Of a stretch of DNA of 64,000 nucleotides, positions 6,032-51,187 are shown in pieces. Positions within the stretch are counted from its first letter, which is position 1, and each line of letters opens with the position of its first letter. The notes below the pieces were generated by a model. It saw only the letters and a list, made by a program, of their open reading frames with translations, was not told where the DNA came from and did no database searches. The position numbers were made by a program, and so were the translations under genes. The DNA is from Clostridiales bacterium Firm_14. Lineage in GTDB: Bacteria; Bacillota; Clostridia; Saccharofermentanales; Saccharofermentanaceae. Location of the stretch: the NCBI GenBank assembly GCA_001604135.1, contig LVAT01000045.1, forward strand, positions 1-64,000. The letters are read 5' to 3'.

Positions 6032-6622
6032 ATGCTTAGAGTTATAGGGATGATGTACGTGACCCTTGTTCCGACCATTCTGGCAGGGGTGATGGTAATG
6101 TTATGGTGCAAGCTGCCTATCTTAAAGGCGATTGCTAAGCCAATAGATTTCGGTAAGAATTTCACAGACGGAAGAAGGATCTTCGGAGACAACAAGACCT
6201 GGAAAGGCATGCTCGGATATATCCTTTTTAATACGCTCTTTTCGGTATTGTGGGGATTTGCTTGTCAGGGCAAGGCTCTTCATGATCTGAACTTCTTTTA
6301 CCAGTATCACGAGAACACCATTCCTTTTAATCTTCTTATCGGCGTCCTTTTGGGACTCGGATATTCGCTTTTCGAGCTCCCGAACAGCTTTCTTAAAAGA
6401 AGGCTTGATATCACTCCGGGCAAATCAGTAAGCGGCTTCTGGAAAGTGTTCTTCATTTTCCTGGATCAGGCTGATTCCGTATTCGGAGTAGCTCTTGTCG
6501 TGTGGCTTTTCTATCCGCTCGGCATCGGTCTTTATCTTTTGTATGTACTTGTCGGTGCAGGAACGCATCTGCTCTTGAACATGATGCTCTACTTCATGCA
6601 CCTTCGTAAAAATATGTTTTAA
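6032..6622 (+). CDS. CDP-archaeol synthase-like cytidylyltransferase (CarS/DUF46 type)
   Basis: This 196-residue polytopic membrane protein has the CarS-family signatures GDNKTWKG (after helix 1) and PGKSVSGF followed by DQADSVFG. In archaea, CarS transfers CMP from CTP to an unsaturated diether phosphatidic acid, giving CDP-archaeol; the bacterial analogue is CdsA. The start at ATG 6032 is chosen because GGAGG lies 5 nt upstream. A TTG at 5987 is in frame but has no such site. A TATAAT box at 5981-5986 may promote the operon. It is the first gene of the operon and is separated from the next by 14 bp. Substrate unknown; a CDP-activated lipid is the likely product. Confidence 0.78.
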   Translation: MLRVIGMMYVTLVPTILAGVMVMLWCKLPILKAIAKPIDFGKNFTDGRRIFGDNKTWKGMLGYILFNTLFSVLWGFACQGKALHDLNFFYQYHENTIPFNLLIGVLLGLGYSLFELPNSFLKRRLDITPGKSVSGFWKVFFIFLDQADSVFGVALVVWLFYPLGIGLYLLYVLVGAGTHLLLNMMLYFMHLRKNMF

Positions 6623-6636
6623 GGAAATCCAAATTT

Positions 6637-9141
6637 ATGTTAGTAAGATTAAGCAGCAGGGAACAGGAAAACGGTAAGCTCGGAAATAAAGGTAAATTCC
6701 TTTTACTCATGAAGCAGAACGGGTTCAATGTTCCGGACGGTTTTGTCCTGGACAGCGATACTTACGATGAGACTGTTAAGGGCGAGCCGGAAAAAGTAAT
6801 TACAAAGACGCTGGAAGGCCTTAACAAGGACAACCTCAAAGAGACAGTTGCAAAGCTTCAGGCTCTTTTCGACGGGATCAAGCTTCCTGCAAAAACTGCG
6901 GATGAGATCAAGGCACTCGTAAAGACCGATAAGCTCTATGCCGTGCGAAGCAGCGGCACGAAGGAAGACCTGGATGAGTTCTCTTTCGCAGGACAGTATC
7001 AGACGTTCCTTAACACCAAGCCTGAAGACGTTGAGGCAAGAGTAATCGACTGCTACAAGTCGATGTTTTCTGAGATCATCTTAAGCTATCTTGTTAACCG
7101 CAAGATCGATACGAGCGAACTTAAGATGTCGGTCGTAGTCCAGGAGATGGTCGCTTCCGATAAAAGCGGTATCTGCTTTACGATCGATCCCGTTACGGGC
7201 AACGACAAGACGATGCTTATCGAAGTATCTGAAGGCCTTGGCGAAGATATCGTAAGCGGCAAGACGGTTCCTGAACAGTATCACTACAACTGGTATGATA
7301 ACAAAGAGACTGACAGAAAGCCTGATAACAAACTTATCTCGGAAGCAAACGTTGAGAAGTATGCGAAGGTTTTTGCTAAGATCCAGCAGCAGTTCGGATA
7401 CCCTTGCGATATCGAATTTGCGATAAAAGATGACGAGCTTTTTATCCTCCAGTCAAGAAGGATCACCAAGCTCAATTATTCAGGCATCAACGATATCTGG
7501 TCCACGGCAGACTTTAAGGACGGCGGTGTATCTGCCACTGTCTGCACACCTTACATGTGGAGCCTTTACGAATATATCTGGGAATACTCTCTCAGAAGAT
7601 TCATCGTGGATTCGAAGATCTTAAAAGATGAACAGCTCCCCAAGAAGTTGGGCGAGATGTATTACGGCAGATGCTACTGGAATCTTACCGCTGTAAAGAA
7701 AGCGATGGAGCAGATCGTCGGCTATAAGGAAAGAGAATTCGATAACGAATACGGTATCGTAGGTGACTACGAAGGCGACGGCAAGGTGACGGGCGCAACG
7801 CCCAAGGTCCTTTTCCACCTTATTCCTATCGTCATTGAGCAGAATAAGCTCCTTACAGACAGAAGGGAGAATTCCGAGCGCTATAAGCAGGAACTCTTAG
7901 ACCTTTACTACGGTTACAAGAAGCACCTTGATGAAGGTACGATTGATGACATCACAAAGGAATTCTACAAGATAACTCATGAGACTTACTTAAGATCCGA
8001 GACAACATATTTCCATCAGATCTTTATCAACACGATCCATCAGTCACTCTATAAGGACAGCCTTCTGAAGTATGTCTCAGAGAGCGAATATCTCTCGCTC
8101 CTTGCGAGCATTGATAACATCTCGCATCTGCTTCCTTTCTACGATATGTGGGATATCACAAGAAAGATAAGGAGCAATGAAGAGACCGCTAAGTATTGGA
8201 AAGATAATTCTGCAGAGGATATCGCGAAAGATCTTGACAGCGGCAAGTTCGAGCTCCCGCTTGTAAGAAAGCTGATCGATGATTACGGTTATCACTCCGA
8301 CAAGGAACTTGATATCACATATCCCTGCTACTACGAAGAGCCTCAGGTCATGATCTCAATGGTCAAGGATATGGCACTTCTGGACGACTCTTATTCGCCT
8401 GAGAGCGACAAGGAGAGAGGCGTCGCAGTATATACGGAGATCTTAAATAACCTGAAGAAAAATGTCTCCGCCGGAAAGTATAAGAAGATCGCATCCAAGG
8501 TCACCAACATGCGTAAGATGCTCTGGTGGCGCGAAGAGTTCCGCGACGTTTCCACAAGGTTCTACTACATGCTCCGTATGTATACGATCGAGTATGCGAA
8601 GAAGTTAGTTTCTGACGGCGTGCTCGAAAAGCTTGAAGACGTATGGTTCTTAAAGGTCGGAAATCTCTGGGATTACATCGCCGGTAATAAGACGAAAGGA
8701 GACCTTAATGACATTATCACGAGAAACAAGTTCTATTACAATGCTTACAGGAACTACATAAGCGACAACGAGATCGGACATAACTTCCGTGTGATCTCCG
8801 AGAGCGCTAATGCAAGCTCCATAAGAGGTCTTGGCGCAAACAACGGCAAGATCACAGGCACTGCAAGAGTCATTGAGGATTTCACGCAGATCGACAGACT
8901 TCAGGAAGGCGATATCCTGGTAACAAGATTTACGGATACCGGCTGGACACCTAAGTTTGCAATCCTGTCAGGAATCGTTACTGAGTACGGCGGAATCCTT
9001 TGTCACGCTGCGATCGTATCGAGAGAATACGGTATTCCTGCGATCGTCTGCTGCAAGGATGCGATGAGCAAGATCTCAGACGGACAGACGATCACGATCG
9101 ACGGAAGCACGGGAGTAGTAACAATTAACGGAGGATCTTAA
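6637..9141 (+). CDS. PEP synthase/rifampin phosphotransferase-like dikinase A
   Basis: This 834-residue protein has three parts. The N-terminal ATP-grasp domain (about 1-280) carries GNKGKFLLLMKQNGFNVPDGF, YAVRSSGTKEDLDEFSFAGQ and the ATP-binding strand DIEFAIKDDELFILQSRR. A long helical middle region (about 300-730) follows. The C-terminal swivelling phosphohistidine domain carries His790 in GGILCHAAIVSREYGIPAIV. This matches the rifampin-phosphotransferase order rather than a true PEP synthase, because the C-terminal PEP/pyruvate barrel is absent. Such enzymes split ATP to AMP plus Pi and pass the beta-phosphate to a small-molecule hydroxyl. In this operon a lipid-related alcohol is a plausible acceptor. 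Confidence 0.85.
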   Translation: MLVRLSSREQENGKLGNKGKFLLLMKQNGFNVPDGFVLDSDTYDETVKGEPEKVITKTLEGLNKDNLKETVAKLQALFDGIKLPAKTADEIKALVKTDKLYAVRSSGTKEDLDEFSFAGQYQTFLNTKPEDVEARVIDCYKSMFSEIILSYLVNRKIDTSELKMSVVVQEMVASDKSGICFTIDPVTGNDKTMLIEVSEGLGEDIVSGKTVPEQYHYNWYDNKETDRKPDNKLISEANVEKYAKVFAKIQQQFGYPCDIEFAIKDDELFILQSRRITKLNYSGINDIWSTADFKDGGVSATVCTPYMWSLYEYIWEYSLRRFIVDSKILKDEQLPKKLGEMYYGRCYWNLTAVKKAMEQIVGYKEREFDNEYGIVGDYEGDGKVTGATPKVLFHLIPIVIEQNKLLTDRRENSERYKQELLDLYYGYKKHLDEGTIDDITKEFYKITHETYLRSETTYFHQIFINTIHQSLYKDSLLKYVSESEYLSLLASIDNISHLLPFYDMWDITRKIRSNEETAKYWKDNSAEDIAKDLDSGKFELPLVRKLIDDYGYHSDKELDITYPCYYEEPQVMISMVKDMALLDDSYSPESDKERGVAVYTEILNNLKKNVSAGKYKKIASKVTNMRKMLWWREEFRDVSTRFYYMLRMYTIEYAKKLVSDGVLEKLEDVWFLKVGNLWDYIAGNKTKGDLNDIITRNKFYYNAYRNYISDNEIGHNFRVISESANASSIRGLGANNGKITGTARVIEDFTQIDRLQEGDILVTRFTDTGWTPKFAILSGIVTEYGGILCHAAIVSREYGIPAIVCCKDAMSKISDGQTITIDGSTGVVTINGGS

Positions 9142-9143
9142 CT

Positions 9144-9755
9144 GTGGTTATCGGCAAGTGGAATAAGTCAGTTATCTTAACCTATGCAGGACTCCTTACC
9201 GCAGTCCTCGGAATCTTTCTGGCGTTCACTCAGGAGAAGATAAATTATGCGTTCTGCTGCTTAATGGTTGCGGGAGTCTGTGACCTTTTCGACGGCATGG
9301 TCGCAAGAAGATGCAAGAGAACGGAAGAAGAGAAGATGTTCGGAATAGAGCTCGATTCCATTGTCGATACGATGAGCTTCATCGCACTCCCTATTTGTAT
9401 CTTCATTTCTATGGGCTTGGTGCAGCTTTGGGACGTGATCATCTTCATGCTCTTCGCTGTTGCAGGCGTTGCAAGACTTGCATACTTTAATATCGATACT
9501 GCAGACAGCGAGAAGGCCATAAAGTATTACACAGGTCTGCCGGTCACATATACTGCGCTGATATTCCCCTTGCTGTACTTATTAAAGCTCCCTTTGGAAG
9601 AGAATATCTTCCTCTGGATAGTAAGAGGTGTGATCGTTATCGTATCTGTCCTTCAGGTATTAAAGATCAAGGTCGTAAAGCCAAAGGGCGTCTGGTATGC
9701 GATATTCGGGATCATGGCTATAGCACTTCTTGTTGTTTATCTGGTTTTTATCTGA
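9144..9755 (+). CDS. pssA: CDP-alcohol phosphatidyltransferase, phosphatidylserine synthase-like
   Basis: This 203-residue membrane protein carries the CDP-alcohol phosphotransferase motif DG-x2-AR...G-x3-D-x3-D, visible as FDGMVARR and FGIELDSIVD, and has about six hydrophobic segments. Size and sequence fit the short Gram-positive PssA (CDP-diacylglycerol plus serine to phosphatidylserine), and the neighbouring psd gene supports serine as the head group. GTG start, with GGAGG 9 nt upstream inside the end of the dikinase gene; the genes are 2 bp apart. Archaetidylserine synthases belong to the same family, so the lipid part of the substrate remains open. Confidence 0.85.
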   Translation: MVIGKWNKSVILTYAGLLTAVLGIFLAFTQEKINYAFCCLMVAGVCDLFDGMVARRCKRTEEEKMFGIELDSIVDTMSFIALPICIFISMGLVQLWDVIIFMLFAVAGVARLAYFNIDTADSEKAIKYYTGLPVTYTALIFPLLYLLKLPLEENIFLWIVRGVIVIVSVLQVLKIKVVKPKGVWYAIFGIMAIALLVVYLVFI

Positions 9756-9761
9756 TTGCTT

Positions 9762-10616
9762 ATGAAAATCTACGACCGCAAAAATGATACTTACGAAGAG
9801 ATAGTCCAATACGGTGCAGGAAAGCTCGTTTTCCTGTATAACAACCCCTTGGGCAGGCTGCTTTTAGGGATCGCCGTATCGCCATTTGTATCGAATGTTT
9901 ATGCGTGGAAGAATTCAAGGAAGAGTTCTGCAAAAAAGATCCCCGCATTCATTAAAGAACACAACATCGACATGAGCGATTACGAAGACAGGGAATATAA
10001 GTCTTTCACTGATTTCTTCACGCGTAAGATCCGTTACGGAAAGCGCCCTGTCGATATGGCGCCTGAAGCACTGATAGCACCCGCTGATTCCAAGCTCCTT
10101 GTCTATGAGATCGAGAAGGATACGACGCTTAGGATCAAGGGCAGGACATATACGGCAGATGAGATCCTGGCAGATGCCGAGAACGCAAAAGAGTTTGCAG
10201 GCGGCTACGCACTTGTATTCAGACTTACAGTTGATGATTATCACAGATTCTGTTATCCGGACAGGGGATGCCTTATAAGCAGGCGCCTGATAAAGGGCAA
10301 GCTTCATACTGTGAGCCCGGTCTCAAAGGATCACAAGATCTATATGGAGAATACGAGAGTCGTAAATCTTTTGAAGACTGAGAACTTCGGAACCATTGCT
10401 TACATCGAAGTCGGCGCGATGCTCATAGGAAGGATCGTCGACAACGGTACCGATGTTTTCGAGAAGGGGCAGGAAAAAGGATATTTTGAACCCGGCGGTT
10501 CGACGGTGGTAATACTCGTCAAGAACGTTGAGATAGATAAAGACATTATGGAGCAGAGCGCTTCAGGGATAGAGACAAAGGTAAGATACGGAGAAAGGAT
10601 AGGCAGAGCTTTATGA
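9762..10616 (+). CDS. psd: Phosphatidylserine decarboxylase proenzyme
   Basis: Psd converts phosphatidylserine to phosphatidylethanolamine using a pyruvoyl group made by self-cleavage. The cleavage motif GGST is at residues 245-248 (EPGGSTVVILV), with Ser247 becoming the pyruvoyl. The conserved DYHRFCYPD motif lies near residues 153-161. The 284-residue length is normal. ATG 9762 is used in preference to the TTG at 9756. No strong ribosome binding site is seen, which suggests translational coupling to pssA. The last bases overlap the next gene as ATGA. Confidence 0.9.
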   Translation: MKIYDRKNDTYEEIVQYGAGKLVFLYNNPLGRLLLGIAVSPFVSNVYAWKNSRKSSAKKIPAFIKEHNIDMSDYEDREYKSFTDFFTRKIRYGKRPVDMAPEALIAPADSKLLVYEIEKDTTLRIKGRTYTADEILADAENAKEFAGGYALVFRLTVDDYHRFCYPDRGCLISRRLIKGKLHTVSPVSKDHKIYMENTRVVNLLKTENFGTIAYIEVGAMLIGRIVDNGTDVFEKGQEKGYFEPGGSTVVILVKNVEIDKDIMEQSASGIETKVRYGERIGRAL

Positions 10617-11521
10617 TCAAGCGAATCTACATTTACTATAAAGAGCGTTATCCGATAATACCGAGGATAGTTTTAGGAATAATTCTTTTCCTTGAGATCC
10701 ATTTCATCATACTCCTCAACATGGGCGTCACATGGAGCCAGGTCCGTCTCGGAGCGGCTGAAGCAACCGGCGCTTTTACGTGCTTTGCTTTCCTCTTATG
10801 GCTTCGTGTCGCTGACGACTTAAAAGATTTCGAGACTGATAAGAAACTGTTCCCGGACAGGCCCCTGCCGAGCGGAAGGGTACTTAAGAAGGACATCATC
10901 ATCTCATGCTCGATCGTTCAGGCGATCGCAATAGGCCTTAACATCGCCTTCATGCGAGAGAACCTGATCTTCCTTGCGATCCTTTATTTCTACGGGTTCC
11001 TGATGAGCAAATGGTTCTTCAAGAAAAAGAAGATCCAGCCGAGCCTTCCTCTGGCGCTCATTACGCATAATCCGGTCCAGGCATTCATCAACCTTTACAT
11101 CATTGCATTTACGATCCAGAAATATAATCTTCCGGCGTTCTCACTGACCAACATAATGGCATTGTGGACTCTTTATTTCCCGGCACTTATCTGGGAGGTA
11201 TCAAGAAAGATCAGGGCGCCGAAGGACGAGACGGAATACACGACTTATTCGAAGCTCTTCGGTTACAAGGATTCCACGAAGTTCGTGCTTATCCTTACGA
11301 TCATGGACATCATCACGAACTTCATCCTCGTATGGAATCTCAATAAGATCTCCGTAGGAGTCTTAGCGCTCCTCGTAGCTTGGATGACATGGAAGTTCGT
11401 CCAGTTCATGAAGAATCCGGAAAAGTTCGTCCTCGTAAACAAAGTCGAACTCTACACGTATCTCCAGGAATCGTCGATGCTCCTTACGATCGTCTGCTTC
11501 ATAATCTTCGGAAAGATCTGA
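10613..11521 (+). CDS. UbiA-family prenyltransferase
   Basis: This 302-residue protein has about eight to nine membrane helices. The first Asp-rich motif reads VADDLKDFETD, close to the family pattern NDxxDxxxD that binds the prenyl diphosphate through magnesium, followed by RPLPSGRV. A second acidic site, PKDETEYTTYSKLFGYKD, matches the later motif. UbiA enzymes attach isoprenoid chains to aromatic rings, haem, or (in archaea) geranylgeranylglyceryl phosphate. No quinone or haem genes are nearby, so lipid prenylation is the better guess given the neighbours. It overlaps psd by 4 bp. Confidence 0.82.
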   Translation: MIKRIYIYYKERYPIIPRIVLGIILFLEIHFIILLNMGVTWSQVRLGAAEATGAFTCFAFLLWLRVADDLKDFETDKKLFPDRPLPSGRVLKKDIIISCSIVQAIAIGLNIAFMRENLIFLAILYFYGFLMSKWFFKKKKIQPSLPLALITHNPVQAFINLYIIAFTIQKYNLPAFSLTNIMALWTLYFPALIWEVSRKIRAPKDETEYTTYSKLFGYKDSTKFVLILTIMDIITNFILVWNLNKISVGVLALLVAWMTWKFVQFMKNPEKFVLVNKVELYTYLQESSMLLTIVCFIIFGKI

Positions 11522-11522
11522 T

Positions 11523-13796
11523 ATGTACGGCTCTAAGATCGACAATCTCATTAAGCTTCGTGACAACGGATTTAATGTTCCGGCATTTACCGTTGTGCCT
11601 TACGAAGATGCGGTCAAAGATGACCTTCAGTTTGATATGCCTTCTTCGGGAAACCTCTTTTCCGTAAGAAGTTCGGCTAATGTTGAAGACGGCGAATTCC
11701 AGAGCTTTGCAGGACAGTTTGATACATTCCTCAATGTCGCGCGCGAAAACGTGAAGGACAAGATCAGGGAGATCATCTCATCGCTTAGCAGCGACGGTGT
11801 TAAGGCATATTGCGAAAAGAGCGGCACCGATATTTCTGACATCAGGATGAACATAATCGTTCAGGATATGATCGATTCTGAAGTGTCAGGCGTGCTCTTT
11901 ACTGCCAACCCGCAGGGCATCTTAAATGAGAGCGTTATAACCGTAGGAAGAGGCCTTGGCGAAGGCATTGTCTCGTCCAAAGTTGATACGACTTCTTACT
12001 ACTACAACCTCACTGATAAGATCTGTTATTTCGAGGGCAAAGAAGACCTGTTAGATCAGGAAAAGATCGAAGAACTGATTGGCATTTCTGATAAGATGAA
12101 GCCTATCTTCGGCGAATACTTAGACATCGAATTCGCGATCAAGGGAGGCGTTGTCTATATCCTTCAGGTACGTCCGATAACGACGCTTAAGACTGAAGAC
12201 CCGCTCATAATGGATAACAGCAATATTGTCGAGAGTTACCCGGGCATCTCATCGCCTCTTACGACTTCATTTGTCGATCTCGTATACAGCGGAGTCTTCA
12301 AAGGCGTCTGCGGAAGAGTGCTTAAGAACGACAAGGAACTGAATAAACACGAAGATGTCTTCCTTAACATGACAGGACACGTCAACGGCCGCGTTTATTA
12401 TAAGATCAGCAACTGGTACACGGTGATTAAATTTCTGCCGATGAGCAAGAAGATAATCCCTGTCTGGCAGGAGATGATGGGCGTCCGCAATAAGACCTAT
12501 AACGAAGACGATGTTAAGATAGGTTTCTTCACGCGTATCGCAACATATTTCAACTCAGTTTACGAGCTCTGTTCCGTTCCGAAGAACATGCGAAAACTGA
12601 ATGAGAAGTTCATCGTTATCAACGACGATTTCTATAAGAGATTCGATCCTTCGTTATCGCCTGAAGAACTTGTAAAACTCTTCAACGATGTGAAGGTAAA
12701 GCTCTTCGACTGCTGGGACGTAACGCTCCTTAACGACATGTATTCATTCATCTTCACGGGCCTTCTTAAGTCCAGGATGAAGAAGAAATACAAGAAGGAC
12801 GACAACGAGATCAATGACTACATCAGCGGCATCTCTGACATCGAGAGCATGAAGCCTGTTATCGAGATCACAAGACTCGCTCTTCAAAAAGACGATATGA
12901 GCGAAGAAGAATTCGCTAAAGCAAAGAAGGAATACATTAAGCTTTACGGCGACAGAAATCTCGAAGAATTAAAACTCGAGAGCAGGACATTCAGAAGTAA
13001 CCCCGAGCTTTTGGACTGGCGCATCAACCAGTACAGGAAAGACATGGACCGCCTTAAGGCAACATGGGACAGTTTTACCAGGAAAAAGAATACTGAAGAT
13101 AAATACGATGCACTCACGAGATTCTATGTTAAGAAGAGTTCTCTGGGCATCTATAACCGCGAGATCTCCAGACTTAACAGGAGCCGCATCTACGGCATCG
13201 TAAGACTCATCATAGACAGTTTGGGTGCCAAGTATAAAGAACAGGGCCTGATCGAAAAAGCACACGATATCTACTATATGAAGATAGATGAAGCACTGGG
13301 CCTTGCGACTGATCCTCATAACATGAGAAAGACTGTATCTGACCGCAAGGAACAGTATAAGCTCTATCGTGAACTGCCGCCTTATTCGAGACTGATCTTT
13401 TCTGAAGGTCCGTTCAACAAGCGCCATACAAACGTTAACCGGTATCACAAAAAGTTTAACGACAATGAACTTTCAGGCGTTCCGTGTTCTGGCGGCATCT
13501 GCGAAGGCGAAGCACTCGTAATAACAGACGTTAACGACACAGGCGATGTGAAGGATAAGATCCTGATCACTAAGATGACCGATCCCGGCTGGGTATTCCT
13601 TTTAACACAGGCAAAGGGAGTTATCTCAGAGAAGGGATCACTTTTGTCCCACACCGCGATAATCTCAAGAGAGATCGGTATTCCTTCGATCGTAGGTGTT
13701 AAAGATCTAATGGACACAGTGCAGTCAGGCGACATCATAAGGATGAACGGCGATAAGGGAACGATAGAGATACTAAAAAGGAGCAGCGATAAATGA
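11523..13796 (+). CDS. PEP synthase/rifampin phosphotransferase-like dikinase B
   Basis: This 757-residue protein is a diverged paralogue of the protein at 6637-9141 with the same order: ATP-grasp (about 1-225, with LFSVRSSANVEDGEFQSFAG and EFAIKGGVVYILQVRPI), a long helical acceptor region, and a C-terminal phosphohistidine domain with His710 in SLLSHTAIISREIGIPSIVG. Both catalytic halves look intact. It lacks the extreme N-terminal region seen in the first copy. Two such enzymes in one operon suggest two phosphorylation steps, or one hetero-oligomer. Start ATG follows the previous stop by 1 bp; the end overlaps the next gene as ATGA. Confidence 0.83.
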   Translation: MYGSKIDNLIKLRDNGFNVPAFTVVPYEDAVKDDLQFDMPSSGNLFSVRSSANVEDGEFQSFAGQFDTFLNVARENVKDKIREIISSLSSDGVKAYCEKSGTDISDIRMNIIVQDMIDSEVSGVLFTANPQGILNESVITVGRGLGEGIVSSKVDTTSYYYNLTDKICYFEGKEDLLDQEKIEELIGISDKMKPIFGEYLDIEFAIKGGVVYILQVRPITTLKTEDPLIMDNSNIVESYPGISSPLTTSFVDLVYSGVFKGVCGRVLKNDKELNKHEDVFLNMTGHVNGRVYYKISNWYTVIKFLPMSKKIIPVWQEMMGVRNKTYNEDDVKIGFFTRIATYFNSVYELCSVPKNMRKLNEKFIVINDDFYKRFDPSLSPEELVKLFNDVKVKLFDCWDVTLLNDMYSFIFTGLLKSRMKKKYKKDDNEINDYISGISDIESMKPVIEITRLALQKDDMSEEEFAKAKKEYIKLYGDRNLEELKLESRTFRSNPELLDWRINQYRKDMDRLKATWDSFTRKKNTEDKYDALTRFYVKKSSLGIYNREISRLNRSRIYGIVRLIIDSLGAKYKEQGLIEKAHDIYYMKIDEALGLATDPHNMRKTVSDRKEQYKLYRELPPYSRLIFSEGPFNKRHTNVNRYHKKFNDNELSGVPCSGGICEGEALVITDVNDTGDVKDKILITKMTDPGWVFLLTQAKGVISEKGSLLSHTAIISREIGIPSIVGVKDLMDTVQSGDIIRMNGDKGTIEILKRSSDK

Positions 13797-14863
13797 AGTT
13801 AGTTAAGTTCGACAGGGAAGAGAAGTATATCAAGGATTTTGTTAAGCTTGCGGAGAGACTCTACGATTTTTCTGACAACATGGAAGATCCTGATTCGATA
13901 AAGAAGATCCTCAAAGGTGAGCATCCTCTTAGCAAGTATTTCTCACTTGCAAAATTCCTTGTCTACGATGACGGCGGCAGCGTCAAAGGACGTTTCTGCA
14001 TCACGTCATATGAGGGCGATACTACTGCGTATCTGGGCTTCTTCGAGTGCGTGAACGACGCGGATGCTGCGAAGTTCCTGTTCGACAGTGCATATTCTTA
14101 TTGCAACGAAAATGGCTTTGAGAAGATCCAGGGTCCTGTCGATGCTTCCTTCTGGATAAAGTACAGACTTAAGATCAACAAGTTCGATGCGCCTTATACG
14201 GGCGAGCCTTACAACAAGGATTACTATCTGAAGCTATTTGAAGACAACGGATTCACCGTTGCTGAGCACTATACTTCACACGCTTTCAGAAGTGTCGGTG
14301 AAGAGTATAAGAATCCTAAGTTCGAAGAACATTACCAGGAGTTCCTTAACGCCGGTTATGAGATCAGGAGTCCCAAGGAAGAAGAGTTTTCGAGCGCTAT
14401 CGATGATGTATACAGACTCGTCACTGACCTTTACAGCGACTTCCCGATCTTCAAGGACGTTAAGCAGGAGGACTTCAGGGAAGTCTTCATGAGCTATAAG
14501 CAGATAATGAACATGAGCATGACCAAGCTCGCTTACTATAACGGCAAGGCTGTAGGCTTCTATGTATCGATCCCGGATTACGGCAATCTCGTTTATCACA
14601 CGGGCAATCCCGTTAATATCGCGAAGATCCTTATGACAAAGAAGAAGCCGAAGCGTTATGTAATGCTCTACATGGGTGTTGACCAGCAGCACAGAGGTCT
14701 CGGTAAAGCTCTTGTCTACGCGATCATGAAAGAGCTTATGGCATCAGGGCTCCCGAGCATCGGAGCTCTCATGAGAGACGGCAAATTAACACAGACATAT
14801 GCGAACGGTGATATCACCGGTGTTTACGAATATGTACTTTTGGAAAGGACGATAGAGAAATGA
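13793..14863 (+). CDS. GNAT-superfamily acyltransferase, two-lobed
   Basis: This 356-residue protein has two halves. The N-terminal half (about 1-180) resembles a divergent GNAT fold with a KIQGPVDASFW segment. The C-terminal half (about 190-356) has a recognisable acetyl/acyl-CoA loop, DQQHRGLGKALVYAIM. Such long GNAT proteins of the YghO type occur next to lipid or sphingolipid-like synthesis genes in other bacteria, but the substrate is unknown. It overlaps both neighbours by 4 bp, so it is an integral part of the operon and probably N- or O-acylates an intermediate. Confidence 0.75.
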   Translation: MKLVKFDREEKYIKDFVKLAERLYDFSDNMEDPDSIKKILKGEHPLSKYFSLAKFLVYDDGGSVKGRFCITSYEGDTTAYLGFFECVNDADAAKFLFDSAYSYCNENGFEKIQGPVDASFWIKYRLKINKFDAPYTGEPYNKDYYLKLFEDNGFTVAEHYTSHAFRSVGEEYKNPKFEEHYQEFLNAGYEIRSPKEEEFSSAIDDVYRLVTDLYSDFPIFKDVKQEDFREVFMSYKQIMNMSMTKLAYYNGKAVGFYVSIPDYGNLVYHTGNPVNIAKILMTKKKPKRYVMLYMGVDQQHRGLGKALVYAIMKELMASGLPSIGALMRDGKLTQTYANGDITGVYEYVLLERTIEK

Positions 14864-16317
14864 ATGAACTTGAGAAGTTTTTAAGAGCGGACTATGAGAA
14901 GTGGAAGGACAGAGATTATCTCCACGAGATGGTGGACGGCAAGTATGTAGGGATCACTTTCGGAGAATTCATAGAGAAGGTGAATTATCTTGCGACTTAT
15001 CTTATCTCAAAGGGCTACAAGGATAAGCACATCGGTATCTACAGCCCGAACTCCCTTGCCTGGATGATAGCTGACGTTGCAATCATGAACTATGTAGGTT
15101 TGAGTGTCGGACTTGCAAAGGATTGGATGGGCGATAACCTCGATTACGCGATCGCCAAGTGTGAGATCTCCTGCATGCTCTACAGCAAGGCTGTTGAGGA
15201 CAGACTTGAAGCCGTAAAGGCTAAATATACTGATGTTGAATTCATCTGCATCGAAGATAATTTCGATAAGATGATCGAAGAAGGAAAGGCACAGTGCAAA
15301 GAGATCTTCGCACTTGAACCCGTCGATGAAGATAAGCCTGCTAAGATCGTATTTACGAGCGGTTCTACATCCTTCCCGAAGGCAGTTATGCTCTCGATAA
15401 AGAACATCTATTCAAGCTATGAGGCACTCGGAAGAAGAATCCAGGTAGACACGAATGATGTCTGCTACCTGTTCCTGCCTTTGAACCATACATACGGATC
15501 AATCTTCAACTTTTTGTATTCTCTTGTGTTCGGCTACAGCATTTACCTTACCGGTGACATTAAGAATATGGCTCAGGAGATGATGATGGTAAAGCCTACA
15601 GTGTTCTGTGCTGTCCCTCTTGTTTGCGTTAAGTTCTGTGAGGGCGCAAAGGCAATGAATGTGCCTTTGAAGATGCTTTTGGGCGGCAGGATGAGGTATC
15701 TTTTCATCGGAGGTTCCTGCCTGCCTTATGACATCCGTCAGGCATTTATAGACCAGGGTATTAACCCGATGAATGCGTATGCATTATCTGAGACATCTTC
15801 AGGGTTCTCGATCGACTATCCTGACGTTACCGACATGGACAGCGCAGGCACACTCTTAGAGTATGTTGATGCGAAAGTAATCGATCCTGATGAGGACGGT
15901 GTAGGTGAGCTCGCGATCAAGGGACCCAATGTTTTCCACGGTTATCTCAATGATCCTGAAGCGACTGCAAGGGCATTTGATAAGGACGGATATTTCCTTA
16001 CAGGTGACCTCGGAAAGATCGTAGGCACCATGGTCTACGTAAAGGGAAGAAAGGACACAATGCTCGTCCTTCCCAACGGCGAAAATGTATCTGCCAAGAG
16101 GATCTGCGAGAAGGTTAAGTCTGCAGATCCCAGGATCGCTTCCGTAAAAGCATATATCCGTGACGGCTATCTCACATGCGATATATTCGTTAACGGCAAG
16201 GAGAACATCGAAGGCGACTGGCAGGCAGTCATCGATAAAGTGAATGCCGATCTGTCGAAGTTCGAGATGATCAGAAAATTCAATGTCGCAGACATCGGGT
16301 CACTGCTGAAGGGTTGA
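14860..16317 (+). CDS. AMP-forming acyl-CoA synthetase/ligase (ANL superfamily)
   Basis: This 485-residue adenylate-forming enzyme shows the P-loop VFTSGSTSFPKAVML (about residue 165), the acceptor motif YALSETSS near 305, the hinge-region aspartate in YFLTGDLGKI and GRKDTMLVLPNGENVSA. It activates a carboxylic acid as an acyl-adenylate for transfer to CoA or another carrier. It is the last gene of the operon and overlaps the GNAT gene by 4 bp, which suggests that it supplies the acyl donor that the GNAT protein uses. No adjacent carrier protein is present. Confidence 0.87.
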   Translation: MNELEKFLRADYEKWKDRDYLHEMVDGKYVGITFGEFIEKVNYLATYLISKGYKDKHIGIYSPNSLAWMIADVAIMNYVGLSVGLAKDWMGDNLDYAIAKCEISCMLYSKAVEDRLEAVKAKYTDVEFICIEDNFDKMIEEGKAQCKEIFALEPVDEDKPAKIVFTSGSTSFPKAVMLSIKNIYSSYEALGRRIQVDTNDVCYLFLPLNHTYGSIFNFLYSLVFGYSIYLTGDIKNMAQEMMMVKPTVFCAVPLVCVKFCEGAKAMNVPLKMLLGGRMRYLFIGGSCLPYDIRQAFIDQGINPMNAYALSETSSGFSIDYPDVTDMDSAGTLLEYVDAKVIDPDEDGVGELAIKGPNVFHGYLNDPEATARAFDKDGYFLTGDLGKIVGTMVYVKGRKDTMLVLPNGENVSAKRICEKVKSADPRIASVKAYIRDGYLTCDIFVNGKENIEGDWQAVIDKVNADLSKFEMIRKFNVADIGSLLKG

Positions 16318-18973: not shown

Positions 18974-19200
18974 CCGTATTGTGTTTTATACGACCCTTTT
19001 CAACAAAGTAAATATTCACGGGGACAATCTTCGGGACTTACTTATTTAATCATATATTGCTGACGATAATTATTTATTTATTTGGAAAACTTAATCCTAA
19101 TGTTCATAACAATGTTGATCAGAAGACTGAATGTACTTAACAACTATATATCGGCAAGACCGCAGCTTTCATTTGTCACATGGAGATAGGGGTATGTAAC

Positions 19201-20529
19201 ATGATACTCTCGGAAGAACACAGGATAAAGAAACATAACAATAAGAAGCTTCTTCACGAGATAGACAATTACTGCTATAAAGTGAAGAACCTTTCCAACA
19301 GCGTCAACTACCTGATAAAGCAGTGCTACCGCATTCACACGAAGATAAAGAACGGTAAGACACTAGAAGAATGGGAAGATGAACTTATCAGAGCGATAAA
19401 CAGTGGCATCGCGGAATACAATTTGGGCCGCTCTGAAGTCAAGCGGATACGTTATATTGATGCCGATAACGGATACATAGCCGATGCATATTTTCTCAGT
19501 TGGTATCTGAAAGGAACAGAAGTATATAAAGACGTTCCGTATGCGACATGCAGTCAGATATGCATACAGGAGAAATGCAGAGAATGGAAATCTTTATACA
19601 GCGCTACAGCAGAATACCGGAAAGACCCAAAGAAATTTAAGGAACAACCGCATGTACCGGGATATCTTGATCCGAAGAAAGGAAGAGGTTCACTTGTAAT
19701 CACCAGCCAGAACTTCAAGGTGGATGAGGATGGTAAAGTCACCATGCCTAAGTTCCTTAGTGGGATACACATAAAAGCAAGACACGATAAAGTAAGACAG
19801 ATACGGATAAAGATGTATAAGAGCTCTGTTCTTATCAGTCTTATGTATGAGAAAAAAGAAAAGACAGTAAAAGGCACAAAAGTAATGGGTATAGACTTGG
19901 GTGTCAACAATCTCATAGCAGCGGCATGGGATTCCGAAGACAGGCCTGTATTGATCAACGGGAAACCAATCAAGTCCATAAACCAATACTACAACAAGGC
20001 AAGAGCACATATGCAAAAGGAGGCGAAGGTATATAACGGAAAGAACAGAACAAGAAGAATAGATAAACTTACGGCAAAAAGGAACCGCAAGATAAAAGAC
20101 TATATGCACAAGGCAAGCAGGAAACTAGTTAACCTGGCAGTCTCTTCGAATGTAGGGCTCATAGTTATAGGAGCCAATCAGGGATGGAAACAAAAAGTAC
20201 ACATGGGAAACGTAACAAACCAGAACTTTGTATCCATACCGTATAAGACGCTTATAAACATGATCGAATACAAAGCAAGACTTGAAGGCATTGAGGTAAA
20301 GACTGTACGAGAAAGCTACACGAGCGGAACGAGTTATCTTGACGGAGAAAAGCCCACGAGAGAATACTACAACAAAGAACGAAGAGAGGAACGCGGTCTG
20401 TTCAGGAGCAACAACGGGATACTGATAAACGCAGACATAAATGCTGCATATCAGATGATTAAACTGGGTAGTACAAGAGCAATTCCCATCAAGACAGGAG
20501 AACAGATAACCAAGATAAAAGCAGCCTGA
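19201..20529 (+). CDS. tnpB: TnpB-family RNA-guided nuclease, complete copy
   Basis: A 442-residue protein. The start at ATG 19201 is preferred over ATG 19180 because AGGGG lies about 8 nt upstream. It has an N-terminal helical/WED-like region, then RuvC-I Asp232 (MGIDLGVNN) and RuvC-III Asp412 (INADINAAY). The canonical RuvC-II glutamate is Gln327 (IGANQGWKQ), while Glu371 in RESYTSG, 44 residues on, is kept in both copies. This fits TnpB groups with a relocated glutamate. The CxxC zinc finger is missing. No tnpA is adjacent. It is closely related to the copy at 1-1029, in the same orientation. Confidence 0.92.
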   Translation: MILSEEHRIKKHNNKKLLHEIDNYCYKVKNLSNSVNYLIKQCYRIHTKIKNGKTLEEWEDELIRAINSGIAEYNLGRSEVKRIRYIDADNGYIADAYFLSWYLKGTEVYKDVPYATCSQICIQEKCREWKSLYSATAEYRKDPKKFKEQPHVPGYLDPKKGRGSLVITSQNFKVDEDGKVTMPKFLSGIHIKARHDKVRQIRIKMYKSSVLISLMYEKKEKTVKGTKVMGIDLGVNNLIAAAWDSEDRPVLINGKPIKSINQYYNKARAHMQKEAKVYNGKNRTRRIDKLTAKRNRKIKDYMHKASRKLVNLAVSSNVGLIVIGANQGWKQKVHMGNVTNQNFVSIPYKTLINMIEYKARLEGIEVKTVRESYTSGTSYLDGEKPTREYYNKERREERGLFRSNNGILINADINAAYQMIKLGSTRAIPIKTGEQITKIKAA

Positions 20530-49510: not shown

Positions 49511-51187
49511 ATGGGAAAGAAGATCGCACTTATCATCGCATCAGTAATCGCGGTTGCCGGCATCGGAACATGCATTGCCGGATTCGTTTCGGAGAAGGCT
49601 GACAGCACCGGCGGAAAAGAAATCGACATCAACGATCCTTCTTCTTTTGTGCCCGGCGTATCAGGCAGAGTCCATCTTTACAGCGAAGATCTTTTCGAAG
49701 TCGAGAAAGGCTTAAGCACCTACACTCCTTATGAACTTGAAGAATATGAATACTCATACATCGTGAGCGGTATCGATACCAACCCTTTTGCGATAGGGCG
49801 CTATCTTGTACCCAAAGATGACCAGGGAAGGCTCATATACAATGTAAAGGTAATGGAATGTCCGGATGAGACATGGCAGAAGGTCTATGACTTCATCATC
49901 GCTTATTACGAGAGGCTTTATGCGATCGTGAGCGAAGATCCGGAAGCTAATCCCGAATACTTAGAGTCCCTGACTGCGACGCTTTCAGATGAGGGCCGAG
50001 AGGCATTGAGGAATTCGATCTCACACACGATGTGTGAAGTAACTCCTTCAGTTAATTATGCGGGGATCAAGCTCACTGGAATCATCATTGCAGCTGTGGG
50101 GCTTCTTGCGGTCTTAAGCATCCTTTTGTCATATAAGCTCAAGGCAAGAAAGATCGTATTGGGATATGTTGTCTTAGTGATCGCAGGCCTGCTGGTCATG
50201 CTTTTCGCAGTAAGAAAACAGATTGCAACTATCCTTTCTTTTAAGGAATATCAACCGGGTGCTTATACCATTAAGTACACGGCAGATTATAAGCTTGACG
50301 ATATGCTGGAAGCCGGAGTTACCGATGAAGCCGGGCTCCTCTCTTGGGCCGGCGATAAACTGTTCTACGGACTGCCGGTATCGATGAACGGAAACACATT
50401 CGGATGTGCGGCGTTCCTGGTAACTGATGAGAACGGCAATCACCTTATGGGACGCAATCTGGATTATCCTGAGGCTGACTGTCTCATGATCTACTGCGAC
50501 CCTAAAGACGGTTACGATTCGATCGCGATGGTCGACTTATCGATCGTTAATATCGGTAGCGGTGAAGGGCAGATGTCACCCACATCTCTTACAGGCAAGG
50601 CCGCTGCTCTTGCTGCGCCCTATTTCGTAGTTGAAGGAATGAATGAGACCGGACTTGGTGTATCGATCCTTGAGCTTGAGACTGAAGAGATCCATCAGGA
50701 TACGGGCAAACAGGACATCCTCATCAATGTCGCCGTAAGAGCCGTCCTCGACAAGTGCGCAACAGTCGATGAGGCTGTCGCTTTCTTTGATAAATACGAT
50801 ATGAATACAATGCTTGGCACATCGTTCCATCTCTTCGTCTGTGATAAGACAGGCAAGAGCGTTGTAGTCGAATGGTTCGGCGACAAGATGTATGTCAAAG
50901 AGAACCCTGCAGTTACAAATTACGTTGTCTGCACAACTGATGCTTACATCGATCCCGGCAACGACACGCGCTATGAAGACCTCATGAAGGAGCTTGATTC
51001 ATGCAGCCGTGTAGCTGACCCTAAGAAGGCAATGAGTTTCCTTGAGATGGTCGGTTACGACAACAAGAAGGGCAGCATAGGCACCGAGTGGTCCTGCGTT
51101 TACGATCTTGATAACTTCACTGTGACTGTATGCTTCGACGTAAAGTACGGAGAGCCCGTATTCATTACGAAGGATACTTTTAAGTAA
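49511..51187 (+). CDS. Membrane Ntn hydrolase of the choloylglycine/acyltransferase family
   Basis: A 558-residue protein. Membrane helices lie at about 7-25, 188-208 and 217-235. The C-terminal half (about 290-558) is a choloylglycine-hydrolase/penicillin-acylase-like domain: TFGCAAFLVTDENGNHLMGRNLDYP, with Cys299 as expected nucleophile, then an Asn/Asp pattern and VVEWFGDKMYV. Cys299 directly follows Gly298, as at the self-cleavage site of fungal isopenicillin N acyltransferase, so autoproteolysis between these residues would release the extracellular domain with a free N-terminal Cys. Linear amides or acylated amino acids are likely substrates. Confidence 0.85.
   Translation: MGKKIALIIASVIAVAGIGTCIAGFVSEKADSTGGKEIDINDPSSFVPGVSGRVHLYSEDLFEVEKGLSTYTPYELEEYEYSYIVSGIDTNPFAIGRYLVPKDDQGRLIYNVKVMECPDETWQKVYDFIIAYYERLYAIVSEDPEANPEYLESLTATLSDEGREALRNSISHTMCEVTPSVNYAGIKLTGIIIAAVGLLAVLSILLSYKLKARKIVLGYVVLVIAGLLVMLFAVRKQIATILSFKEYQPGAYTIKYTADYKLDDMLEAGVTDEAGLLSWAGDKLFYGLPVSMNGNTFGCAAFLVTDENGNHLMGRNLDYPEADCLMIYCDPKDGYDSIAMVDLSIVNIGSGEGQMSPTSLTGKAAALAAPYFVVEGMNETGLGVSILELETEEIHQDTGKQDILINVAVRAVLDKCATVDEAVAFFDKYDMNTMLGTSFHLFVCDKTGKSVVVEWFGDKMYVKENPAVTNYVVCTTDAYIDPGNDTRYEDLMKELDSCSRVADPKKAMSFLEMVGYDNKKGSIGTEWSCVYDLDNFTVTVCFDVKYGEPVFITKDTFK

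Follow-up and report, generated by a model that had tools for sequence, protein, structure and literature searches.

The window analysed here is the whole stretch of 64,000 nucleotides at positions 1 to 64,000 of contig LVAT01000045.1 (assembly GCA_001604135.1) of Clostridiales bacterium Firm_14. Our subject is an operon-like block on its + strand at 6032-16317, where eight tightly packed open reading frames (ORFs) may serve to make a phosphoethanolamine lipid whose hydrophobic core is not of a standard kind. The genes and the two motifs of the UbiA-family protein are given below, where type I is the arrangement of the window, type II an arrangement with a DgkA-family kinase and type III one with BtaA.

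6032..6622, + strand: CarS-like cytidine triphosphate (CTP):lipid-phosphate cytidylyltransferase (PF01864, 71.2 bits, cut-off 22)
6637..9141, + strand: dikinase A (ATP-grasp and phosphohistidine domain), probable lipid-alcohol kinase (PPDK_N and PEP-utilizers)
9144..9755, + strand: PssA-like CDP-alcohol:serine phosphatidyltransferase (CDP-OH_P_transf, PF01066, 50.3 bits)
9756..10616, + strand: Psd-like decarboxylase (PS_Dcarbxylase, PF02666, 174.3 bits, cut-off 22)
10613..11521, + strand: UbiA-family membrane transferase (PF01040, 33.2 bits; NCBIfam NF010118)
10814..10840, + strand: UbiA motif 1, DDLKDFETD, intact (DDxKDxxxD in 79 of 79 type I/II rows)
11195..11215, + strand: UbiA motif 2, EVSRKIR, with Lys for the first Asp (E[VI][SA]RKI[RK] in 78 of 79)
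11523..13796, + strand: dikinase B, common to all three operon types (PPDK_N and PEP-utilizers)
13793..14863, + strand: tandem-GNAT acyltransferase, distant YghO homologue (Acetyltransf_1, 21.7 bits, weak)
14860..16317, + strand: AMP-forming ligase, probable acyl activator (AMP-binding, PF00501, 188.2 bits, the only match)

CarS starts with the ATG at 6032, which has GGAGG 5 nucleotides before it. Gaps of 14 base pairs (bp) and 2 bp separate CarS from dikinase A and dikinase A from pssA, psd follows pssA with 0 bp between them if its start is TTG and with 6 bp if it is the ATG at 9762, and a gap of 1 bp lies between UbiA and dikinase B. Overlaps of 4 bp (ATGA) join psd with UbiA, dikinase B with GNAT, and GNAT with AMP-ligase. 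The operon is separated by 60 bp from the ORF upstream and by 66 bp from the ORF downstream of it. The number of promoter-like sites (20) was as expected by chance (mean 19.6, standard deviation 4.1), and that of terminator-like sites (13) was near the chance value (mean 9.2, standard deviation 2.9). A preliminary description of this DNA had named the same eight genes and families, which is confirmed by ORF reading and Pfam, and had counted four ATGA overlaps, of which only three are present.

The CarS profile matched the structure of CDP-archaeol synthase (5guf, E 5.6e-6), and its NCBIfam equivalog score was 77.8 bits, below 148. The best NCBIfam matches of PssA were archaetidylserine synthase (72.6 bits) and TIGR00473 (69.2 bits, cut-off 107), both below cut-off. 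UbiA in the window stayed just below the Pfam cut-off of 34.2 bits, reached 35.1 bits in a whole-genome search, and scored 384.7 bits with NF010118 (cut-off 443). Its sequence match to digeranylgeranylglyceryl phosphate (DGGGP) synthase is weak (E 0.94), and DGGGP synthase is also the nearest fold of the UbiA model, found by Foldseek at E 5.6e-5. This model is that of the UbiA of L002, 76% identical to the one in the window, with a predicted local distance difference test (pLDDT) score of 81.6; its comparison with the DGGGP synthase 7bpu gave Z 17.0 and a root-mean-square deviation (rmsd) of 3.6 with 258 aligned, and soluble prenyl synthases gave Z of about 12.5.

The operon has four enzyme families in common with the archaeal polar-lipid pathway (DGGGP synthase, CarS, archaetidylserine synthase and decarboxylase), whose enzymes are the nearest solved structures for its UbiA and CarS. 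Since archaeal-lipid enzymes are among the nearest matches of CarS, UbiA and PssA, one could think of the classical archaeal ether-lipid pathway (glycerol-1-phosphate, geranylgeranylglyceryl phosphate (GGGP) synthase, DGGGP synthase, CarS, archaetidylserine synthase and decarboxylase) gained by bacteria. However, the archaeal equivalog cut-offs were not reached, motif 2 of UbiA is unlike that of DGGGP synthase, and the own genome (3.1 Mb, 45 contigs, 99.25% complete) gave no match to PcrB/GGGP synthase (PF01884); 22 of 115 genomes of the own family matched it, with weak pieces of about 36-60 residues only. The lack of a GGGP synthase match in this genome makes the complete classical archaeal route very unlikely, and we give it hardly any probability. 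The operon also differs from that pathway in adding two dikinases, a GNAT and an AMP-ligase.

Outside the operon, a single CdsA-family match and a single strong CDP-alcohol transferase, interpreted as PgsA, occur in the genome, so the CarS and PssA of the operon need not serve bulk phospholipid synthesis. The operon psd is the sole PF02666 match in the genome, the operon UbiA is the sole PF01040 match, and there is one polyprenyl synthase. A role of UbiA for quinones was considered and is not supported, as the only PF01040 match sits in the operon and the polyprenyl synthase is single. Bacterial phosphatidylethanolamine (PE) synthesis by CdsA, PssA and Psd has CTP activation, serine transfer and decarboxylation in common with the operon, which differs by having CarS and not CdsA (this being elsewhere in the genome), its own kinase and an added core set.

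The preliminary description had suggested looking for conserved co-occurrence of these families in related genomes. This was done with a clear outcome: the gene set is kept together in relatives, and the same gene order was found again in dozens of other genomes. The scan of named genomes covered the best 80 of 249 UbiA-encoding stretches (L036-L115); UbiA was the query and is hence given, and the other genes were judged only in loci with enough flank. Among the informative loci for the first half, CarS was found in 60 of 60, dikinase A in 59, psd in 58 and pssA in 49; for the second half, dikinase B and GNAT were each found in 56 of 56 and AMP-ligase in 52. Over all 80 loci including short ones, the counts were 73 for CarS, 73 for dikinase A, 64 for pssA, 75 for psd, 78 for dikinase B, 74 for GNAT and 63 for AMP-ligase. 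A UbiA of this kind (NF010118) was present in 41 of 115 genomes in the family survey and in one of 398 in the phylum sample, that one being the own genome. By record title, the set occurs in both Lachnospiraceae and Saccharofermentans-type genomes.

The distance matrices of the eight genes were correlated (r 0.65-0.93 in the 40 loci with all eight at full length), and 200 label permutations of one gene pair gave r of at most 0.23. From the shared divergence and the conservation it follows that the set behaves as one inherited unit, and a chance neighbourhood of these genes is ruled out. Some variation was seen. The pssA-psd pair has moved to the operon end in three loci (L103, L105 and L255), and a few matches were split in two pieces, for example for GNAT in L096 and L097, for dikinase A in L085 and for dikinase B in L105. 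A strongly diverged and rearranged locus, L198, has dikinase A in two frames, dikinase B, GNAT, psd, UbiA (31%), pssA and CarS, with no AMP-ligase match adjacent.

In the own family, psd occurs in 40 of 41 UbiA carriers versus 23 of 74 non-carriers. Where psd or pssA is missing from the operon, the genome often has a copy at another site: the locus L052 is without psd, and G028, whose operon lacks it, has a psd on a different contig. Since at least 8 of the 41 carriers hold a second full psd elsewhere, the operon psd is not simply the housekeeping copy. Of 15 genomes without pssA beside psd, 12 contain a further CDP-alcohol transferase of low score (42-64 bits; the window pssA has 54 bits on the same scale), which in L046 is 8 kb downstream.

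These counts bear on the reading that the operon performs plain diacylglycerol chemistry followed by N-acylation of the head group. Dikinase A would be a diacylglycerol kinase, CarS, PssA and Psd would make PE, and GNAT with AMP-ligase would acylate the amine, giving N-acyl-PE, or an N-acyl-homoserine lipid in type III, with UbiA and dikinase B adding further decoration. It is matched with the primary amine on both alternative head groups, with the homology of GNAT to a YghO-type N-acyltransferase, and with the operon Psd being the only one of the genome. However, with CdsA already in the genome a second CTP enzyme on the same substrate would be redundant, the second full psd of those at least 8 of 41 operon-bearing genomes speaks against it, and UbiA and dikinase B are left unexplained, though dikinase B was found in every informative locus. 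We consider this reading rather unlikely.

A first gene swap concerns the kinase. In seven genomes (type II), a DgkA-family kinase adjoins CarS, and dikinase A is absent from the operon. Two of them, L089 and L110, came from the 80 loci; they have no dikinase A in the locus, a more distant CarS (42%), and before CarS a DgkA-family kinase (PF01219, 90 and 82.7 bits). When the family and order of L089 were searched and 33 regions were read, five further genomes were found (L197, L249, L250, L252 and L253). Pfam supports the kinase with 76-90 bits of PF01219 in six of the seven (L089, L110, L197, L249, L250 and L252), and L253 was found by tblastn only. The substrates that DgkA enzymes phosphorylate are lipid alcohols. 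As DgkA stands in place of dikinase A, dikinase A is therefore probably a lipid-alcohol kinase that feeds CarS, PssA and Psd.

Both dikinases keep a catalytic-type histidine, at codon 790 in dikinase A (9004-9006, invariant in 12 rows) and at codon 710 in dikinase B (13650-13652, invariant in 14 rows), and dikinase B is present in operon types I, II and III. The nearest solved relatives of both are 5hv2, 5hv1 and 5fbs (E about 1e-97 for dikinase A), which are labelled phosphoenolpyruvate synthase and which we take to be rifampin phosphotransferases. With NF041857 (cut-off 999 bits), dikinase A scored 321.8 bits and dikinase B 209.8 bits, both far below. Dikinases of the rifampin phosphotransferase and prodigiosin ligase type have ATP-grasp, middle and C-terminal phosphohistidine domains like those of the operon, which differ in these low scores and in sitting in a lipid operon.

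The second swap is larger. In type III, found in other Clostridia (L199-L203, L208, L240-L248 and L259), BtaA, the enzyme of a homoserine head group, replaces the kinase, CarS, PssA and Psd, and UbiA, dikinase B, GNAT and AMP-ligase are kept. The order is BtaA, a membrane protein of 450 amino acids (aa), GNAT, AMP-ligase 1, UbiA and dikinase B; some loci add, after dikinase B, an AMP-ligase 2 with a carrier-protein domain (PF00550 with 32.4, 26.9 and 19.5 bits, the last below the cut-off of 20.8). BtaA was found by tblastn in all 16 type III loci examined, which come from 15 of the 20 such genomes of one of the searches in the family and order of L089 and from one genome of the other, and PF11899 was tested and found in three of them (L199, L201 and L240); it gave no match among ten window proteins scanned. 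We know of no earlier description of a BtaA-type sister operon. The retained genes are homologous to those of the window (HHalign 99.4%, E 4e-21 for UbiA; 98.8%, E 8e-17 for GNAT). In a tree of 42 UbiA rows, type III forms a single group (100/100), and type II needs two changes and is poorly resolved, with some rows on long branches.

BtaA converts diacylglycerol and S-adenosylmethionine to diacylglycerol-O-homoserine, according to PMC10685587. Because BtaA takes diacylglycerol, its acceptor in type III should likewise be a lipid alcohol, and because the shared core is paired with BtaA, UbiA, dikinase B, GNAT and AMP-ligase should build that lipid alcohol. Type III appears to make a homoserine lipid on this shared core, and the head group seems to be exchangeable. 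Compared with betaine-lipid synthesis by BtaA and BtaB, the BtaA family belongs to the sister operon with the same core and has no match in the operon of the window.

The 450-aa membrane protein of type III (L199 3724-5070 and counterparts) has the motifs RKxxH, ADxxA and KSxEGS, which we take to be CTP-kinase-like. It had no Pfam match at 0.01 and no PDB match, HHalign to CarS and CdsA was negative, and one of five members had a weak DUF92 match (E 0.062).

UbiA has weak sequence similarity to known prenyltransferases, the type III protein being somewhat closer; in HHalign with E. coli UbiA, the aligned part was just 38 columns for the window protein and 62 for that of type III. When aligned with the UbiA of E. 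coli and with DGGGP synthase, all 79 type I/II rows have Lys in place of the first Asp of motif 2; the only exception to the motif pattern is L089 with EVSRKTK, and this Lys is also in the five type III rows shown. Since Lys replaces that Asp, the use of a prenyl diphosphate by UbiA is doubtful; its donor may be different, and we speculate on a monophosphate. The isoprenoid part of the lipid in the preliminary description is possible but made uncertain by the changed motif 2 and the weak similarity.

These features can also be read as prenol salvage. An alcohol, for instance phytol or a different prenol, would be phosphorylated first by the variable kinase (in type III the 450-aa CTP-kinase-like protein, otherwise dikinase A or DgkA) and then by dikinase B, UbiA would move the chain to a phosphorylated acceptor, and CarS, PssA and Psd would take the phosphorylated product directly. 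One variable kinase-like gene indeed accompanies dikinase B in those loci of all three types that were read, and the fold closest to UbiA is that of DGGGP synthase, which works from a phosphorylated acceptor to a phosphorylated product. Plant phytol salvage, by VTE5, VTE6 and VTE2, likewise has kinase(s) and a UbiA-family transferase; the operon differs from it in kinases of other families and the changed motif 2. In herbivore gut samples, chlorophyll-derived phytol should be available, and 31 of the 80 titles name ruminant, horse, reindeer or rabbit ("Lapin") in a hand count of shortened titles. On the other hand, collections of metagenome-assembled genomes are heavy in rumen samples, the Lys of motif 2 makes diphosphate use doubtful, and the 450-aa protein has no Pfam family and was negative against CdsA and CarS. 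BtaA would require a dephosphorylated product, and as the genome itself encodes a polyprenyl synthase, a prenyl donor can be had without salvage. We regard prenol salvage as rather unlikely; together with plain PE and N-acylation it is the main competitor of the route proposed here.

The GNAT model (pLDDT 79.9) resembles the tandem GNAT 7q3a (Z 18.1, rmsd 4.1, 290 aligned); a PDB sequence search with GNAT gave only an antibody chain (E 0.062). With YghO of E. coli K-12, annotated as a putative regulator, HHalign gave 97.7% and E 2e-12 over 305 columns. PMC9386255 lists the E. coli B counterpart of YghO as acyl-CoA N-acyltransferase in the synthesis of dihydroceramide. Four related loci (L050, L052, L058 and L086) have an extra two-domain GNAT gene between GNAT and AMP-ligase; as a clue to the product it was of no help.

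The homology with YghO would agree with a ceramide-like phosphoethanolamine lipid, in which a long-chain amine is the substrate of GNAT as ceramide synthase and the head group comes from the other genes. GNAT is also paired with an acyl activator, as in aca/aasR/acpR of sphingolipid makers (PMC9386255), and ligase 2 of type III has its carrier-protein match (PF00550). But the operon has no gene of serine palmitoyltransferase (SPT) type, for which the rest of the genome was not searched, and UbiA and dikinase B would again be unexplained. The bacterial ceramide set given in PMC9386255 (SPT, AasR, AcpR and YghO/aca) has no counterpart of the UbiA and dikinases of the operon. We give this reading little probability.

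Gene content, conservation, gene swaps and catalytic motifs are read directly from the sequences. We give a probability of roughly 45% to the operon being dedicated to making a phosphoethanolamine lipid on a hydrophobic core of non-standard type. The head-group half taken alone (kinase, CTP activation, serine transfer and decarboxylation) is likely. In the core steps, AMP-ligase would activate an acyl chain, GNAT would pass it to the amine (or hydroxyl) of a precursor, and dikinase B with UbiA would activate and attach a second chain to give a lipid alcohol, X-OH. In the head-group steps, dikinase A with ATP would phosphorylate X-OH, CarS would turn X-P into CDP-X, PssA would swap cytidine monophosphate for serine, and Psd would decarboxylate the serine to ethanolamine. 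In evolution, DgkA can take the place of dikinase A, and BtaA (homoserine ether) that of the entire phosphate branch. We infer every substrate, and the order of the core steps, from the gene families and the swaps. As to the lipid of the preliminary description, its head group is supported by the families and by the two gene swaps, and its acylated part is plausible with GNAT as a distant YghO homologue.

Several results weigh against this route. Among the matches listed, no NCBIfam match of the eight proteins attains its cut-off, and the changed motif 2 makes the donor of UbiA uncertain. A C-terminal domain of the AMP-ligase was recognised in only one (L089/L204) of six members scanned, which leaves the type I ligase without a recognised one. 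Absences also exist: pssA is missing in 11 of 60 informative loci and AMP-ligase in 4 of 56, and in 3 of the 15 genomes checked no second CDP-alcohol transferase was found. The absence of dikinase A in the seven DgkA genomes refers to the operon, the rest of those genomes not having been searched. In type III, the kinase-like 450-aa protein stands beside BtaA, which needs no phosphate, and prenol salvage fits this protein better.

The families are known, and their combination, the swaps and the product are without a description found in openly licensed PMC papers, in line with the preliminary description, which knew of no described pathway with this gene set. If the proposed route is right, it would provide an extra lipid type and its likely gene set for mostly uncultured gut bacteria, and would show clearly how head groups are exchanged while the core is kept. 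It would also mean a lipid-side role for rifampin-phosphotransferase-like dikinases and a UbiA branch perhaps using a different donor. In a more far-reaching and improbable form, the pathway would be transferable: an alcohol chain, possibly plant phytol or a different prenol, would be activated as phosphate by dikinases and joined by UbiA, with its altered metal site, to an acylated backbone, and the lipid alcohol would receive phosphoethanolamine as its cap in one lineage and homoserine in the other. Bacterial membrane lipids of a new class, with exchangeable core and head-group modules, would be the result.

Among the 80 titles, 19 further ones have RUG-type isolate names, which presumably stand for rumen, none of the visible titles names human, and the remaining titles give no source. 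Titles with Fibrobacter or Saccharibacteria probably belong to bins with a wrong label. By their titles, five carriers seem to be cultured isolates, and with such carriers lipid analysis is feasible now. All eight genes were found in four of these, Lachnospiraceae bacteria P6A3 (L053) and AC2028 (L068), Butyrivibrio sp. XPD2006 (L069) and Ruminococcaceae bacterium YRB3002 (L058), whereas Butyrivibrio sp. INlla14 (L057) gave only part of dikinase A and had no AMP-ligase close by.

The flanking genes were variable across the 80 loci, except mnmA in close relatives, and no conserved flanking gene revealing the product was found among them. The commonest flanking cluster occurred in 19 of 80 loci at varying positions, and its scanned member is an ABC transporter. 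In the window, IS605 OrfB/TnpB-like genes (PF01385, PF07282) flank the operon region in the same orientation at 196-1029 and 19180-20529, the first being shorter (277 versus 449 aa). Farther away, at 49511-51187, is a linear amide C-N hydrolase with choloylglycine-hydrolase/AAT similarity, in which the stretch before the domain looks membrane-bound by eye.

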